DNA of 64,000 nt, from NCBI GenBank assembly GCA_947567425.1, contig CANOLV010000012.1, positions 1-64,000 of the forward strand, given 5' to 3'. Shown here piece after piece: positions 56,318-62,547 of this stretch. Positions within the stretch are counted from its first letter, which is position 1; every line of letters begins with the position of its first letter. Source of the stretch: an uncultured Porphyromonadaceae bacterium. Lineage in GTDB: Bacteria; Bacteroidota; Bacteroidia; Bacteroidales; Muribaculaceae. Position numbers and translations under genes: made by a program. Below the pieces are notes generated by a model that did not search any database, was not told where the DNA came from, and saw nothing but the letters and a program-made list of their open reading frames with translations.

Positions 56318-56536
56318 ATGAAAAAAATAAAAATTCAGCCTTTGTCGAAAGACGAAATGGGACATTTAATCGGAGGCTTTGCAACGCCATCAGATCCTGG
56401 AATTTCTCCCAATAGTTTAGCAAATGGCAATTGTAGCCAAGATTCAAAAATTTATAATAATAATTGCGCTTGTTCAAAATGTTCTGGAGGAGGACGTAAG
56501 GATCCTGAACCCCCGAAAGATTTACCAGCCGACTAG
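56318..56536 (+). CDS. RiPP precursor with double-glycine leader and four-cysteine core
   Basis: A 72-residue peptide. Residues 1-20 (MKKIKIQPLSKDEMGHLIGG) match the classical double-glycine leader: Leu-12, Ser-11, Glu-8, Met-7, Leu-4, Gly-2 and Gly-1 counted back from the cut, exactly what a C39 peptidase-ABC exporter reads. The predicted core (21-72) is hydrophilic and carries cysteines at 39, 50, 52 and 55, including CACSKC, then Gly-Gly-Gly and a charged Pro-rich tail (KDPEPPKDLPAD). The radical SAM enzyme encoded next presumably modifies it. From memory it fits the GG-Bacteroidales natural-product precursors. Product structure and activity are unknown. DNA is AT-rich and codon use differs from the flanks, suggesting transfer. 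Confidence 0.85.
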   Translation: MKKIKIQPLSKDEMGHLIGGFATPSDPGISPNSLANGNCSQDSKIYNNNCACSKCSGGGRKDPEPPKDLPAD

Positions 56537-56542
56537 AAACTT

Positions 56543-56580
56543 GTCTACAAGTGGGTAAGAATCCTTACTCACTTGTAGAC
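56543..56580 (+). promoter_or_regulatory. 17-bp hairpin between precursor and maturase genes
   Basis: Arms 56543-56559 and 56564-56580 pair over 17 bp with one G-U pair and a 4-nt loop (AATC). There is no T-run, so it is more likely an attenuator or 3'-end stabiliser that keeps precursor mRNA in excess of the enzyme genes downstream. It starts 7 nt after the precursor stop. Confidence 0.75.
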
Positions 56581-56595
56581 TAATAATTATTTGAC

Positions 56596-57885
56596 ATGAA
56601 ATTAAGTAAATATATTTATATTGAAGAAATTGCGGGAAATAATTCAATTTTATACAATTATTCCAATGACTTGGCTATTGTTGTTTTTAATGAATTAAAA
56701 GAATTGCTGTTAGAAAATAGATTGTTCCCGGATAAAATTAAAGTAATTCATCCATCGTTTTATGAGGCTTTATGCGATAGGAAAATATTGATTCCCAATT
56801 GTCTTTTGGAAGAAAAACATAAAGTCTCCGAGATAAGAAGTAGATTATGTCAACAGCATTCTGCTCATATAATTATCAATCCAACCATGGATTGCAATTT
56901 GAGATGTTGGTATTGCTATGAACCTCATTTAAGAGGTAGTTATGTGTCGAATGATATGTTGCGTAAAATAGAACTGTTTATCAGCAGAATTGTTAATTCA
57001 TCAAAAATTTCAAATATTGATTTATCATTTTTCGGTGGTGAACCGCTTATGAAATTCCATCAAACGGTATTACCCTTATTGAATGACACGAAAATTTTAT
57101 GTGAAAGGAATAAGGTAAAATTATCACTAAGCTTCACGTCGAATGGAGTTTTGTTAAGTAAAAGAGTTGTTGATAAGATTATAGATATGGATAAAAATTG
57201 TCAAATTCAAATACCATTCGATGGAAATCGTAAATATCATAATAGAACGAAGATTGATAATCATAGATCTGGGACTTATGACGTTACTCTAAAAAATATT
57301 TTGTATGCATTAGAATGTGGAATAAGAATAAATATTAGATGTAACTATACAGATGAGAATGTATTATCTTTTAAAGATTTATTGGATGACTTGGCAAAGT
57401 TGGAAAGAACCTTGCATAAGAATTTACATATTTCCTTACAACGTGTTTGGCAAAATTCAGAGTCGCAAATATTGAGTGAAAAGGTCAATGAAGTTATTGA
57501 ATATGCCATTAAATTGGGCTTGATGACGGAATCTGAATCAATGGAAATAGGCACTCATTGTTATGCAGATTATGAAAATTCATATGTGATTAACTATGAT
57601 GGTAATGTATTTAAATGTACGGCGCGAGAATTTTCAGAAAAGAATAGCATTGGTAAATTGGGAGAGCATGGTGAAATTATTTTAAAAGATCGAAATTTAA
57701 GTAGTGTTGAGTCTCGATTCAAAAAGCCGTGTTATTCTTGTATAATATTGCCAATATGCACAATTTGTCATCAACGACATTTTGAGAACGATGATAATTG
57801 TTGTCCTAATCAATTGTCAGAGGTTGACAAATTAAATCAAATTAGATTTCGATTACACTCACTATATAAGTCATACTTAACATAA
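56596..57885 (+). CDS. Radical SAM/SPASM peptide maturase
   Basis: A 429-residue radical SAM enzyme. The [4Fe-4S] cluster motif is CNLRCWYC with Cys100, Cys104 and Cys107, followed by SFFGGEP, the SAM-binding GGE motif (about 145). The N-terminal 90 residues may include the peptide-binding (RRE-like) part. A C-terminal SPASM region holds auxiliary-cluster cysteines: CYADYENSYVINYDG, VFKC, CYSCIILPICTIC and the terminal CC (about 335-405). Such enzymes install thioether or C-C crosslinks in ribosomal peptides; the four-cysteine precursor 60 nt upstream is the obvious substrate. One 60-base line counted (57241-57300) is 28% G+C, far below the flanks. The bond formed cannot be predicted. Confidence 0.92.
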   Translation: MKLSKYIYIEEIAGNNSILYNYSNDLAIVVFNELKELLLENRLFPDKIKVIHPSFYEALCDRKILIPNCLLEEKHKVSEIRSRLCQQHSAHIIINPTMDCNLRCWYCYEPHLRGSYVSNDMLRKIELFISRIVNSSKISNIDLSFFGGEPLMKFHQTVLPLLNDTKILCERNKVKLSLSFTSNGVLLSKRVVDKIIDMDKNCQIQIPFDGNRKYHNRTKIDNHRSGTYDVTLKNILYALECGIRINIRCNYTDENVLSFKDLLDDLAKLERTLHKNLHISLQRVWQNSESQILSEKVNEVIEYAIKLGLMTESESMEIGTHCYADYENSYVINYDGNVFKCTAREFSEKNSIGKLGEHGEIILKDRNLSSVESRFKKPCYSCIILPICTICHQRHFENDDNCCPNQLSEVDKLNQIRFRLHSLYKSYLT

Positions 57886-57889
57886 ATTT

Positions 57890-60190
57890 ATGCGCTTTGT
57901 TTGGATTATAGTCTTGGTTATTGCCGGAATATCGCCGTCTGTTCTCTGCGCGGATTCGGGAAATCGCATTCGTGTATCTGTGTCAGACAGCAATGGGGCG
58001 CAGGTGGAAATGGCAAATGTTGTGCTTCAAAGTATGCCTGATTCTAACTTTGTAAATGGCGGAGTAACGGATGTGCAGGGAATAGTATGGTTGAATGTTC
58101 CTCAAAGTGGCATATATCTTGTAAAGGCCGTTTGTTTAGGCTATATCGAGGAGGACGAATTGATTAGAGCAGGGGATTCTTGTGTCAATCTGACTTTGAA
58201 AAATAATCCTCGGATGCTTGATGAGGTGGTGGTCAGACCCGAACGCATGAAATACCATGCTTCCGGATTCGTGGCAGACTTGTCCGGAAGTAAAATTTCT
58301 GTCGGAAAGCAATTGTCCGAGGTATTGGCATTTCTTCCAGGAGTATCGGTCTCTGACGGGAAAGTGCAGATTCTCTCAAAAGCTCCATCAGCGATATATG
58401 TTGATGGGTTGCGCGTTACATCGCAGAGGGAACTTGAAGCAATTCCTGCCGAGATGATTCAGACGGTAGATGTAAGTTATATGGCAGGAGCAGATCAATC
58501 CTCCGATGCGTCAGGTGGCGTGATTCGGATTGTCCTGAAAAAGAGCCCTAAAGGTGGATATTCAGGTTACTTTTATAGTGGCTTAAATCCTGTCTCTCAC
58601 TATGGCTATGGAGGAGAGATGGCATCTAATTACATTACTTTAAGTAGGGGGAGATTTGCATTGTCGAACCGTCTTTACTTTGACCGAACGAAAATATATG
58701 CGGATGAGGACAATAGCTATACATATAAAGATAAAGACAATACTGTTGCTTCTTTTGACAAAACGCGAGGATGGAGGACCACGCTATATGACAGATTAAA
58801 TATAAATGTTGATATTGGTAATTGTCATACTCTTGCCCTGTCGGGAATGTTTTCCACGACCAAAATAGACAACGATATTTCTTCATTAATCGGAGAATCT
58901 TTGTCTGTACTTAATGTGGACGATTGTACAGATCAATATCAGATTGTAGGTAAATATGTCTGGACTAATGATGATGACGGAGGTAAAATTGATCTTACGG
59001 CCGACTATATTCACAGATATAACCGCTTGGGTCAGAATGTTTCTCAAAAAGCTGAACTTCAGTCTGATCTGCATAGTCAAAGTACGGACTTATTGCGGAC
59101 CACAGCCTCAGTGTTGCATCGATTTGGTGCTGTTGAATTTTCTGGTGGACTTGATATGCAGTATGTGAAAATGTCCTGTAAGTTTTCGGGCAATACTGAT
59201 TCTTTTGATAAGAATGGGGGTGTTGGATTTAATGGTTACAGGCCGGCCGCATTCATGCAATTTTCGGGTAGTGTCAAGAATATTATGTACGAAGCGGGGC
59301 TTAGGTTTCAAGGGAGCTTGACCAGAATTGAGGACCATTCGATTAAAGTCAATAAAGATATATGGGAATTTTGTCCTGCTGTAAGTATTCTTTGTCCGTT
59401 TAATGCCGATAAAGGGCATTTGTTGATGTTTAATTATAGGCGGTCGGTCGATGAACTGCCCTACAGTGTCATCTCTCCGTATAGAACATATACCTCGGAG
59501 CTATCGTATACCACCGGCAATCAGAATGTCACATCGCCAATTGAAAACGAGGTCATGGCGCTGACGACTTTTTTTGATAAATACACTTTCATCGCCGGAT
59601 ATAACCATATATCCGATCCTATATATTTTGCTACTTCATCAGATGCTTCCGGGCAAATAAAAAATGAGGCTACCAACGGTACGTTTGAGTCATTGCTGTC
59701 TTTTACTGCAGAAGCATTGATTGACGTGACTAAATGGTGGAGTGTGAAGCCTAAGGCCATGTTTGGAATTCATTGGGCTGATACGCCGGACTATTATGTC
59801 GCCGCTCAGTCAAAATGGGCGTTTTCGATAAACAACAGTTTTAATTTCTCTGATTCTTTTGGAGGCGGCATATATGCGAAGTATGAGCCTGATTGTAACT
59901 ATATGGACATGGTGATGAAATCCGTTTATGGCGTAAATGGTAATATTTATAAGACTTTTTTGAAGGGTAATCTACAGTTCAGGCTTGATTTTAATCTGTA
60001 TTCCAAGGGGCGTATAGTTGTCACTGACACAAAATCTTGTCGTAACATATATCGAAATCTGACTAAAAGTCCGTCGCTAAGCTTTACAGCAACCTGGTAT
60101 TTCCGTGGAGGTAAAAAGGTAAAGCCCAAAGACGATGCGGAAAGTATTCAGAATTATCATGTCGTTGATAATAACAAAGATTTTGATTGA
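57890..60190 (+). CDS. TonB-plug outer-membrane beta-barrel protein of the RiPP cluster
   Basis: A 766-residue outer-membrane protein. Signal peptide about 1-20 (SPSVLCAD); carboxypeptidase-regulatory-like domain about 25-108 (RIRVSVSDSNGAQVEMANVVL); plug about 110-220 (LDEVVVRPERM, VLAFLPGVSV, SAIYVDGLRV, ASGGVIRIVLKK); and a beta-barrel to about 740, of the OMP_b-brl_3 type rather than SusC. It starts 5 nt after the maturase gene, and its stop TGA overlaps the exporter ATG by one base, so it is an integral member of the operon. It might carry the mature peptide across the outer membrane or take part in its reuptake or immunity. Direction of transport is inference. Confidence 0.82.
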   Translation: MRFVWIIVLVIAGISPSVLCADSGNRIRVSVSDSNGAQVEMANVVLQSMPDSNFVNGGVTDVQGIVWLNVPQSGIYLVKAVCLGYIEEDELIRAGDSCVNLTLKNNPRMLDEVVVRPERMKYHASGFVADLSGSKISVGKQLSEVLAFLPGVSVSDGKVQILSKAPSAIYVDGLRVTSQRELEAIPAEMIQTVDVSYMAGADQSSDASGGVIRIVLKKSPKGGYSGYFYSGLNPVSHYGYGGEMASNYITLSRGRFALSNRLYFDRTKIYADEDNSYTYKDKDNTVASFDKTRGWRTTLYDRLNINVDIGNCHTLALSGMFSTTKIDNDISSLIGESLSVLNVDDCTDQYQIVGKYVWTNDDDGGKIDLTADYIHRYNRLGQNVSQKAELQSDLHSQSTDLLRTTASVLHRFGAVEFSGGLDMQYVKMSCKFSGNTDSFDKNGGVGFNGYRPAAFMQFSGSVKNIMYEAGLRFQGSLTRIEDHSIKVNKDIWEFCPAVSILCPFNADKGHLLMFNYRRSVDELPYSVISPYRTYTSELSYTTGNQNVTSPIENEVMALTTFFDKYTFIAGYNHISDPIYFATSSDASGQIKNEATNGTFESLLSFTAEALIDVTKWWSVKPKAMFGIHWADTPDYYVAAQSKWAFSINNSFNFSDSFGGGIYAKYEPDCNYMDMVMKSVYGVNGNIYKTFLKGNLQFRLDFNLYSKGRIVVTDTKSCRNIYRNLTKSPSLSFTATWYFRGGKKVKPKDDAESIQNYHVVDNNKDFD

Positions 60191-62382
60191 TGAAGTTTCA
60201 ATTTGTCAAACAGCGGGATTCTATGCAATGCGGAGTGGCATGCCTGTCAATGGTGTGCCGGCACTTTGGCCGAGCATATTCTATTGAGGCTTTGTCGCGT
60301 TATTGTTTTGCTACGGCTGAAGGCGTGTCCATGCTTGGAATCGGTGAAGCCGCCGAAAATCTCGGACTTAATTCTAAGGCTGTAAAACTGTCAATCAGAC
60401 AACTTGCAGAATCTCCTATGCCTTGTATTCTGCATTGGAACCAAAACCACTTTACTGTATGTTATGGTATAAAGGGTGGCGGAAAACAATTTCTTATAGC
60501 CGATCCTGCGAAAGGACTCATAAAGTGCAGTGTGTCTGAATTGGAATCACACTGGGTCAGTTGCTCTTATGATGGAGAACGCTTTGGAGTGGCTATGTTT
60601 TTTGATCCGACTAAAAGATTTTTTGAACTTAATTCTGAAATGTATGAGCCAGAGAAGAGATCTTTCAGATTTCTTATAGGCTACATTAAGCAATATAAAG
60701 GATATTTTGCTCAAATCATATTTGGTTTATTGTTAGGTAGTTTATTGCAGCTTATAATGCCATTCCTTACGCAAGCTGTTGTTGATGTCGGAATAAAACA
60801 GTCGGATATTAACTTTATCTGGCTAATATTATTGGGCGAAATGATGATAGTGTTCGGACGTGCGGCCACCGACTTTATCCGCAGATGGCTGATGCTTCAC
60901 ATATCCATGCGCATTAACATATCGCTTCTTAGTGATTTCTTTATAAAATTATTGAAATTGCCGATGTCGTTTTTCGATACTAAGCTAATGGGCGATTTGA
61001 TGCAGCGTATGGGCGATCATGGTCGGGTGCAGTCATTTCTTACGTCGCAAACACTTAACATTGCCTTTTCGATTTTAAATTTTGTAGTTTTTGGTGTTGT
61101 GCTCCTTATTTATAATAAGTTGATATTCTCGGTGTTTGTTATAGGAAGTACTATATATGGACTTTGGACTGCGTCATTTTTGAATAAGAGAAAGGTTTTA
61201 GATTATGAGCTTTTTGAGAAGCAAGCCATCAATCAAAATAAGACATATCAGTTTATAACCTCAATGCAAGAGATTAAACTTCAGGATTGTGAAAGGCGCA
61301 GACGTTGGGAGTGGGAGGATGTACAGGCCGACTTATTTCTTGTACAGATGAAGTCGCTTAAGTTACAGCAGATGCAGGAAGCAGGAAGCATATTCATAAA
61401 TGAGGTGAAGAATATTTTAATTACGGTATTTGCTGCCACAGCTGTTATTAATGGTGAAATAACGCTTGGTGCAATGTTGGCTATTCAATATATCGTGGGC
61501 CAATTGAATAGTCCTATAGCCCAGCTGATGGGATTTATTTACTCTCTTCAGGATGTAAAGATTTCGCTTGAACGAATTAATGAAATTCACGAGGGCCGTA
61601 ATGAAGAAACTTCAGAAAATAATTTGACGGAATTTGAATCCGGAGAAAACATTAACTTCAGCGACGTAGTGTTCAAATATGACCCTCATAGCCTCCGGAA
61701 TATTATTGATCATGTCACGTTTGACATCCCCGATGGTAAGGTTACTGCAATAGTGGGGGCATCTGGATGTGGAAAAACCACCCTTATAAAGTTAATGTTA
61801 GGATATTATCCTGTCCTTGCCGGATGTTTGTCGGTGGCTGGTCATAATATAGCAAAGTATAATTTGAAATGGTGGCGAAGACAATGTGGCGTTGTAATGC
61901 AGGATGGAGTAATCTTTTCTGAATCAATAGCTCGGAATATAGCTGTTGATGATAGTGAAATAGATGCTGAGCGACTCGAATATGCTGCTTCGATAGCAAA
62001 TATCCGCGATTACATAGAAGGGTTGCCATTGAAGTATAACACTCAGATAGGACGCGACGGGATAGGCCTCAGTCAAGGGCAAAAACAACGAATTTTAATA
62101 GCGAGAGCAGTATATAAGAATCCTAAATTTATATTTCTTGATGAGGCGACAAATGCTCTTGATGCAAAGAACGAACGCATAATTGTAGAGAATCTAAAAA
62201 AATTCTACAGAGGTCGCACGGTAGTAATTGTCGCTCATCGCTTGTCTACGGTTAAAGATGCAGATAAGATTATCGTGCTTGATGGCGGTAAAATTTCCGA
62301 GGTCGGTAATCACGAATCTTTAATAGCTCAAAAAGGGGTATATTATAACTTAATTAAGAATCAACTCGAACTTGGAGCATAA
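60190..62382 (+). CDS. C39 peptidase-containing ABC exporter
   Basis: A 730-residue bacteriocin-type exporter that cuts double-glycine leaders and pumps the product across the inner membrane. ATG 60190 (stop-start overlap TGATG) is preferred over an in-frame TTG at 60187. The C39 peptidase (1-130) has Gln13-Cys14 in DSMQCGVACLSM, His87 in WNQNHFTV and Asp105 in IADPAKG. Six membrane helices follow (about 155-440), then the ATPase: Walker A GASGCGKTT with Lys529, signature LSQGQKQR, Walker B FIFLDEATNALD with Glu652. All catalytic residues are present. Its partner is the leader peptide encoded at 56318. Only a stub of an HlyD-type adaptor follows. Confidence 0.95.
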   Translation: MKFQFVKQRDSMQCGVACLSMVCRHFGRAYSIEALSRYCFATAEGVSMLGIGEAAENLGLNSKAVKLSIRQLAESPMPCILHWNQNHFTVCYGIKGGGKQFLIADPAKGLIKCSVSELESHWVSCSYDGERFGVAMFFDPTKRFFELNSEMYEPEKRSFRFLIGYIKQYKGYFAQIIFGLLLGSLLQLIMPFLTQAVVDVGIKQSDINFIWLILLGEMMIVFGRAATDFIRRWLMLHISMRINISLLSDFFIKLLKLPMSFFDTKLMGDLMQRMGDHGRVQSFLTSQTLNIAFSILNFVVFGVVLLIYNKLIFSVFVIGSTIYGLWTASFLNKRKVLDYELFEKQAINQNKTYQFITSMQEIKLQDCERRRRWEWEDVQADLFLVQMKSLKLQQMQEAGSIFINEVKNILITVFAATAVINGEITLGAMLAIQYIVGQLNSPIAQLMGFIYSLQDVKISLERINEIHEGRNEETSENNLTEFESGENINFSDVVFKYDPHSLRNIIDHVTFDIPDGKVTAIVGASGCGKTTLIKLMLGYYPVLAGCLSVAGHNIAKYNLKWWRRQCGVVMQDGVIFSESIARNIAVDDSEIDAERLEYAASIANIRDYIEGLPLKYNTQIGRDGIGLSQGQKQRILIARAVYKNPKFIFLDEATNALDAKNERIIVENLKKFYRGRTVVIVAHRLSTVKDADKIIVLDGGKISEVGNHESLIAQKGVYYNLIKNQLELGA

Positions 62383-62400
62383 TCTATATAACTCGTAATT

Positions 62401-62547
62401 ATGGAACATGATCGAATTGACATAAGGTCAGATAAAGTAAAGCGACTGCTCGCAGAGAAGCCGTCGCCGTTAGTGAGGTATGGGACTTTGGTATTGCTGA
62501 TAATTTTTGCGATTACCGGTGCTGTAATCGGATGCTATTTTTGGTAA
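62401..62547 (+). CDS. 48-residue membrane protein like an HlyD adaptor N terminus
   Basis: A short frame 18 nt after the exporter stop: ATG 62401, TAA 62545-62547. The product has a charged head (MEHDRIDIRSDKVKRLLAEK), then PSPLVRYGTL and one membrane helix (LVLLIIFAITGAVIGCYFW). This head-plus-helix layout is what HlyD/MFP adaptors of C39 exporters show before their periplasmic part, but here the chain ends right after the helix. No adaptor remnant follows, because the RNase HI gene begins 11 nt later on the other strand. It may be a truncated adaptor or a dedicated small partner of the exporter. Recognition is from memory. Confidence 0.65.
   Translation: MEHDRIDIRSDKVKRLLAEKPSPLVRYGTLVLLIIFAITGAVIGCYFW

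Follow-up and report, generated by a model that had tools for sequence, protein, structure and literature searches.

The window analysed here is the whole stretch of 64,000 nucleotides from an uncultured Porphyromonadaceae bacterium. Positions 56318-62547 hold a cassette of five genes on the plus strand, with every open reading frame intact in the window. The features are as follows.

56318..56536, + strand: precursor peptide, 72 aa; leader 56318-56377 ending in Gly-Gly, core 56378-56533
56543..56580, + strand: 17-bp hairpin in the 59-base gap that separates precursor and maturase; z -7.1 relative to shuffled versions of this gap
56596..57885, + strand: radical SAM/SPASM peptide maturase, 429 aa, assigned by family models and an alignment of relatives
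57890..60190, + strand: TonB-plug beta-barrel (OMP_b-brl_3), 766 aa, assigned by Pfam and predicted fold
60190..62382, + strand: C39 peptidase-ABC exporter (PCAT), 730 aa, read from the ATG overlapping the stop codon of the barrel and assigned by Pfam
62401..62547, + strand: micro-HlyD, 48 aa; a cytosolic helical segment and a single hydrophobic stretch that extends to the C-terminus

All coordinates of the first-pass annotation held, and the "six-part unit" that it described is correct if the hairpin is counted as a part; by genes the count is five. The same gene order was searched for elsewhere and recurred in locus L091, and also in L095 with one additional small gene.

The GC content was 39% in the precursor gene, 30% in the maturase, 42% in the barrel, 39% in the exporter and 43% in the micro-HlyD, compared with 53% in the gene that flanks the cassette upstream; GC3 was 0.25-0.45 in the cassette genes and 0.62 in the flanking gene. 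The cassette is an island of foreign composition, in which the maturase is set apart from the exporter half. A GC step lies within it, between 56318-57885 (39 and 30%) and the barrel and exporter in 57890-62547 (42 and 39%), which fits an exchange of modules. Five collinear intact ORFs, curated domains, recurrence elsewhere and 30-43% GC beside a 53% flank indicated that the cassette is more than a chance arrangement. A small double-glycine (GG) leader precursor, a modifying enzyme and a C39-ABC exporter are the gene content of the RiPP double-glycine/PCAT class, and judged by its sequence the cassette seems equipped for the production, modification and secretion of a short peptide that contains cysteines.

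Precursor and maturase

The Gly-Gly of the precursor lies at residues 19-20, which leaves a core of 52 residues, as annotated before, with cysteines at positions 39, 50, 52 and 55. The three closest maturases (L087, 41% identity; L088, 39%; L089, 38%) adjoin precursors that can be aligned with that of the window. In an alignment of the window precursor and nine precursors beside related maturases, a set of ten picked by eye, the leader motif resembled L(S/T)xDExxxLxGG(F/Y). The core contained two Asn-Cys sites, the first as NxNC in 8 of 10 precursors and the second conserved in 9 of 10; L087 has TGNC at the first site and L094 deviates at both. At least two further cysteines followed the second site in all ten. 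The leader had been called a perfect GG consensus. This wording was loose, as no curated model passes for the precursor (TIGR04149, the GG-Bacteroidales precursor model, gave 9.4 bits and E 0.99, below the 25-bit threshold), while recurrence of the leader motif in relatives stands on its side.

The gap between precursor and maturase was predicted to fold more stably than shuffled sequences in 9 of the 10 loci (z -2.9 to -7.6), the exception being L089 with z 0.1. This fits control of the precursor:enzyme ratio by RNA structure. No match to the Bacteroidetes promoter pattern was found upstream of the precursor.

The maturase passed Pfam Radical_SAM (48.7 bits, cut-off 29.5) and fell below the cut-off of Pfam SPASM (14.8, cut-off 21.5). 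It carries the CxxxCxxC motif (C100, C104, C107) and seven SPASM cysteines (C322, C341, C379, C382, C388, C391, C403), and all ten were invariant in 48 of 48 aligned relatives, which bears out its earlier assignment as a SPASM-type maturase. No curated NCBIfam cut-off was passed among the best 25 of 57 models: the scores were 120.3 for CefB NF038107 (cut-off 600), 109.4 for TIGR04463 (525), 111.7 for TIGR04280 (400), 94.5 for PapB NF047865 (340) and 43.4 for TIGR04148 (300). Among the NCBIfam models listed, there was none whose curated cut-off the precursor or the maturase reached. The best relative of known structure by profile was 5wgg (E 3.5e-21), which is CteB, described in PMC10352776 as a ranthipeptide maturase. 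The window maturase shares the SPASM cysteine pattern of thioether-forming maturases (CteB 5wgg, CefB, TIGR04463, PapB) and has its best scores in this group, but it lies far under their curated cut-offs, and the core of its precursor differs in having the Asn-Cys motif. Our best guess from sequence is that the maturase would form thioethers.

The micro-HlyD and its exporter

The exporter passed Pfam Peptidase_C39, ABC_membrane and ABC_tran, and aligned over residues 2-723 with PCAT1 (4ry2) and over residues 5-723 with ComA (8hf4). Q8, C14, H87 and D105, which we take to be the catalytic residues, were all found together with the ABC motifs, in agreement with the first reading.

That reading did not identify the final small ORF as an HlyD anchor. 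The 48-aa protein matched no Pfam family, and its one NCBIfam match reached 12 bits against a cut-off of 476. ORFs following related exporters, however, share a common start like (I)ELRSEKVRxxxGxxPxxxxRxG. A profile of these micro-proteins found 12 ORFs longer than 300 aa among the loci examined, and in 12 of 12 the match was N-terminal only, from residues 1-17 to residues 49-71. Both of the long ORFs that were tested (L158 and L237) passed Pfam HlyD_3. This homology identifies the 48-aa protein as the anchor that forms the N-terminus of HlyD.

Across related exporters, the size of HlyD ranges from about 440 aa through about 160 aa down to 44-82 aa. An HlyD match was present in 132 of 393 genomes of the order, and among the 150 matches listed, 103 frames were of 425-500 aa, 31 of 150-235 aa and 6 shorter than 100 aa; three of these six came from the genus of the window, and the other three (40-55 aa) were weaker matches. 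In a tree of 96 exporters, HlyD class changed 17 times, compared with 45 when shuffled, and all 24 micro cases fell within one clade of 28 rows, the rest of which comprised three without a detected micro-HlyD and one with a 130-aa protein. A bootstrap tree of 45 rows supported the micro side at 100/100 and placed two groups of 138-174 aa between micro and full forms (supports 98/96 and 100/99), with two short forms (174 and 228 aa) nested among full-length ones. The shortening is not one clean series, because of the gaps and the 130-aa member in the micro clade and these nested short forms. The exporter trees are unrooted, and we infer shortening because full HlyD is the commoner form. A separate exporter clade (L103, L109, L117, L118, L135), about 41% identical to the window exporter, has proteins of 126-150 aa without the ELRSEKV motif after C39; these are perhaps an independent shortening of HlyD.

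The 48-aa protein might instead be a decaying HlyD remnant without function, with the PCAT alone sufficing for export. The 3 of 28 clade members in which no micro-HlyD was found would agree with this, as would the many more distant exporters with no detectable HlyD alongside. We consider it improbable: the protein is kept across the clade directly after the exporter gene, S10, K12, P21 and G28 were invariant in 12 of 12 aligned micro proteins, and dN was below dS in all 8 micro pairs with finite dS (of 28 pairs), several of them near saturation. Between the window and G011, a genome of the same genus, dN was 0.24 and dS 1.90.

The barrel and the proposed route of export

The barrel protein comprises a CarboxypepD_reg-like domain (about residues 25-105), a plug (about 117-216) and the barrel (about 224-740). 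It passed Pfam OMP_b-brl_3 (117.5, cut-off 27) and was just under the cut-off of Pfam Plug (21.8, cut-off 23.9). Its predicted structure has the fold of a TonB-dependent transporter, with the plug within a large beta-barrel. This plugged fold and the one-base overlap between the barrel stop and the exporter ATG support the earlier description of a TonB-plug barrel translationally coupled to the exporter. By sequence, nothing convincing was found among solved structures (best E 0.034, an antibody chain). The top structural matches, ranked by VIA-align re-ranking, were siderophore, cobalamin and colicin/microcin receptors, all of them for import.

In hand-picked loci chosen by exporter, a barrel was adjacent in 13 of 14 loci with a micro-HlyD, 3 of 3 with a mini-HlyD and 1 of 9 with a full HlyD; these loci are not independent, since barrel and HlyD class share ancestry. 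In a set chosen by maturase, a barrel was adjacent in 29 of 30 loci without HlyD. TolC was adjacent in none of the 9 full-HlyD loci; L158, which was excluded from the nine for its short flank, has TolC 2.6 kb downstream. TolC in trans is thus possible for the window cassette as well. Tripartite type I secretion uses a periplasmic HlyD domain reaching to TolC, and the window HlyD has 48 aa and a hydrophobic C-terminus. Because this hydrophobic stretch runs to the C-terminus, the micro-HlyD should be unable to bridge the periplasm.

The reading that we favour, with modest confidence, is a RiPP cassette with two-step export, through the PCAT to the periplasm and then through the barrel. The leader would recruit the SPASM radical SAM enzyme, which would probably join the thiols of cysteines with neighbouring residues in the region of the two Asn-Cys sites. 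The C39 domain would then cleave after Gly-Gly, and the ABC exporter, whose motifs are intact, would carry the 52-residue core to the periplasm. An HlyD-TolC channel would be missing at this point, HlyD being a cytosolic segment and a membrane anchor too short for the periplasm, although it may still dock on the exporter and tune it. The TonB-plug barrel, gene-coupled to the exporter, would finally pass the peptide over the outer membrane, as is reported of Oar and PopC. The product is most likely a peptide secreted between bacteria, a toxin or a signal. The claim that the unit contains everything from substrate to two-membrane export had assumed export by the barrel.

It counts against this model that the structures most similar to the barrel are receptors for import, and that the 17-kb locus of L087, the closest maturase relative, is devoid of a C39 gene. 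The barrel may be an importer or receptor for re-uptake of the mature peptide or a peptide-metal complex (for self-sensing, immunity or nutrition), with exit via a TolC encoded elsewhere or by leakage. The plugged fold and its top matches speak for this, and the full-HlyD loci have no adjacent TolC either. Yet the barrel accompanies micro rather than full HlyD, as if replacing the bridge, and a 48-aa HlyD cannot reach TolC. We regard an importer as the less probable function, though a serious one. Alternatively, the product might be a metallophore, a metal-binding peptide whose loaded form the barrel re-imports, rather than a toxin or signal. The core is rich in cysteine and gave a weak match to Pfam metallothionein (E 0.13), and copper and zinc transporters were also among the fold matches of the barrel. 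The metallothionein score was far under the cut-off (12.9, cut-off 27), cysteines crosslinked by the radical SAM enzyme would not bind metal, and the cassette contains no metal-related gene, making a metallophore very unlikely.

Apparent module exchange and relation to known systems

Among 148 related genomes, matches to the maturase were found in 27 (E 1e-10), to the barrel in 6 (E 1e-30) and to the exporter in 44 (E 1e-100). Scanning named genomes yielded 158 maturase relatives, the best 80 of which lay in 79 loci, all Bacteroidetes by title. Among viral contigs, 99 stretches matched a pattern and none encoded a relative; plasmids gave 4 records, at 26-33% identity.

The exporter of G011 is 87% identical to that of the window, the micro-HlyD 62-64% and the RNase H 85%, and the next genes downstream are syntenic. 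DNA similarity sets in at window position 60182, which is 8 bases ahead of the exporter ATG. Upstream of its exporter, on the opposite strand, G011 encodes a 97-aa GG precursor whose Cys-rich core is a different one (L069:239-532), and a 38-aa ORF that on visual inspection looks like the beginning of a maturase; the G011 module is known from these two near a contig end. The barrel had no tblastn match at the exporter locus of G011 or on contig 26. RNase H was present in 13 of 13 other genomes of the genus, the upstream flanking gene had a relative in only 1 of 13, and no exporter lay beside RNase H in the 10 neighbourhoods examined (of 12 genus genomes besides G011).

Contig 22 of the genome from which the window comes carries a second cassette, with an exporter 75-76% and a maturase 36-37% identical to those of the window. 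This cassette (L068:3158-12640) encodes a maturase, a 94-aa precursor with 9 cysteines after GG, a 767-aa protein in which two stretches are of the glycosyltransferase-2 type, and an OMP_b-brl_3 protein of 972 aa, followed by C39 and a micro-HlyD. From these genes its product is perhaps a glycosylated radical SAM peptide; L109 looks similar by eye. In other loci (L070:34-2486, L077, L079, L080, L083, L084, L091, L162), a TPR protein, which in L070 has a weak DUF6377 match, and a protein of 120-140 aa that begins with a signal-like segment were found upstream, and could be a peptide-responsive regulator. In 7 of 23 micro-HlyD rows (L141 repeats L071, and some flanks are short), a TPR protein longer than 300 aa lay no more than 9 kb upstream; none lay by the window cassette. 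Proteins encoded next to GG or PCAT genes at L090:5911-8974 and L233:3847-6965 have by eye the look of LanB/thiopeptide-type dehydratases, although LanB is reported absent from Bacteroidales in PMC10352776.

Exporters at 74-77% identity pair with maturases at 19-62% identity. Maturase and exporter identities had a Spearman correlation of 0.20 (1371 pairs), which slower evolution of the exporter may explain. With a different precursor at the same site in the sister species, precursor or cargo modules appear, by sequence comparison, to be exchanged beside the exporter. The exporter and micro-HlyD would then form a fixed chassis at the site.

PMC10352776 describes Bacteroidales clusters that combine a radical SAM enzyme with a PCAT and an outer-membrane protein and in which no membrane-fusion protein (MFP) was identified; its authors ask whether transport is distinct or the MFP was missed. 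OMP_b-brl_3/TonB-related proteins were earlier suggested as graspetide exporters (PMC8939145). "New natural-product system" was therefore too strong, and the RiPP-type cassette of GG precursor, SPASM-type maturase, C39 exporter and coupled barrel is what stands of the first interpretation. The kind of cassette is known; its new parts are the precursor-maturase subfamily and the graded HlyD. BGC6-9 of PMC10352776 share with the window GG precursors, a C39 PCAT and an outer-membrane protein, with radical SAM enzymes in BGC6-8 and LanM in BGC9. By their description, the window cassette differs from them: YcaO and LanM are both absent, precursor and maturase belong to a different subfamily, and the exporter is immediately followed by a micro-HlyD. 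Bacteroidetocins, as described in PMC6671954, are Bacteroidales GG-leader peptides with a C39 ABC exporter, as here, whereas their loci have a five-TM protein, usually a thiol oxidoreductase and no radical SAM enzyme in that description; the five window genes include neither such a TM protein nor a thiol oxidoreductase, and do include a radical SAM enzyme. With HlyB-HlyD-TolC the cassette shares the HlyD anchor, but it lacks the periplasmic HlyD domain and an adjacent TolC, and has the TonB-plug barrel in their place. Oar of Myxococcus xanthus is a TonB-dependent transporter required for secretion of PopC across the outer membrane (PMC6434023). Its N-terminal extension, plug and TonB box resemble the window barrel in features, and its cargo, unlike that of the window, is a protease without a PCAT partner.

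In the literature searched, as far as the accessible texts go (including PMC10352776, PMC6671954, PMC6434023, PMC8939145 and PMC8277102), no description of a graded HlyD was found. The micro-HlyD as a shortened HlyD anchor, the module exchange point, and the precursor subfamily marked by a pair of Asn-Cys sites and a cluster of Cys, with its maturase subfamily, look new by that literature.

We tentatively propose that a Bacteroidales lineage may have passed from one-step ABC-HlyD-TolC secretion to two-step export, with HlyD cut in stages to a PCAT-tuning microprotein of 44-82 aa, a TonB-energised plugged barrel exporting the RiPP, and the exporter serving as a fixed dock for interchangeable precursor-maturase modules. 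The graded HlyD offers a candidate answer to how GG-leader peptides exit Bacteroidales. Should the barrel prove to export, gut bacteria would have in their TonB-dependent transporters an outward route for natural products, and genome mining would do well to include HlyD anchors of 44-82 aa, which Pfam and NCBIfam left unnamed here. If precursor modules are indeed swapped next to an exporter that stays in place, this would suggest an interchangeable peptide platform.
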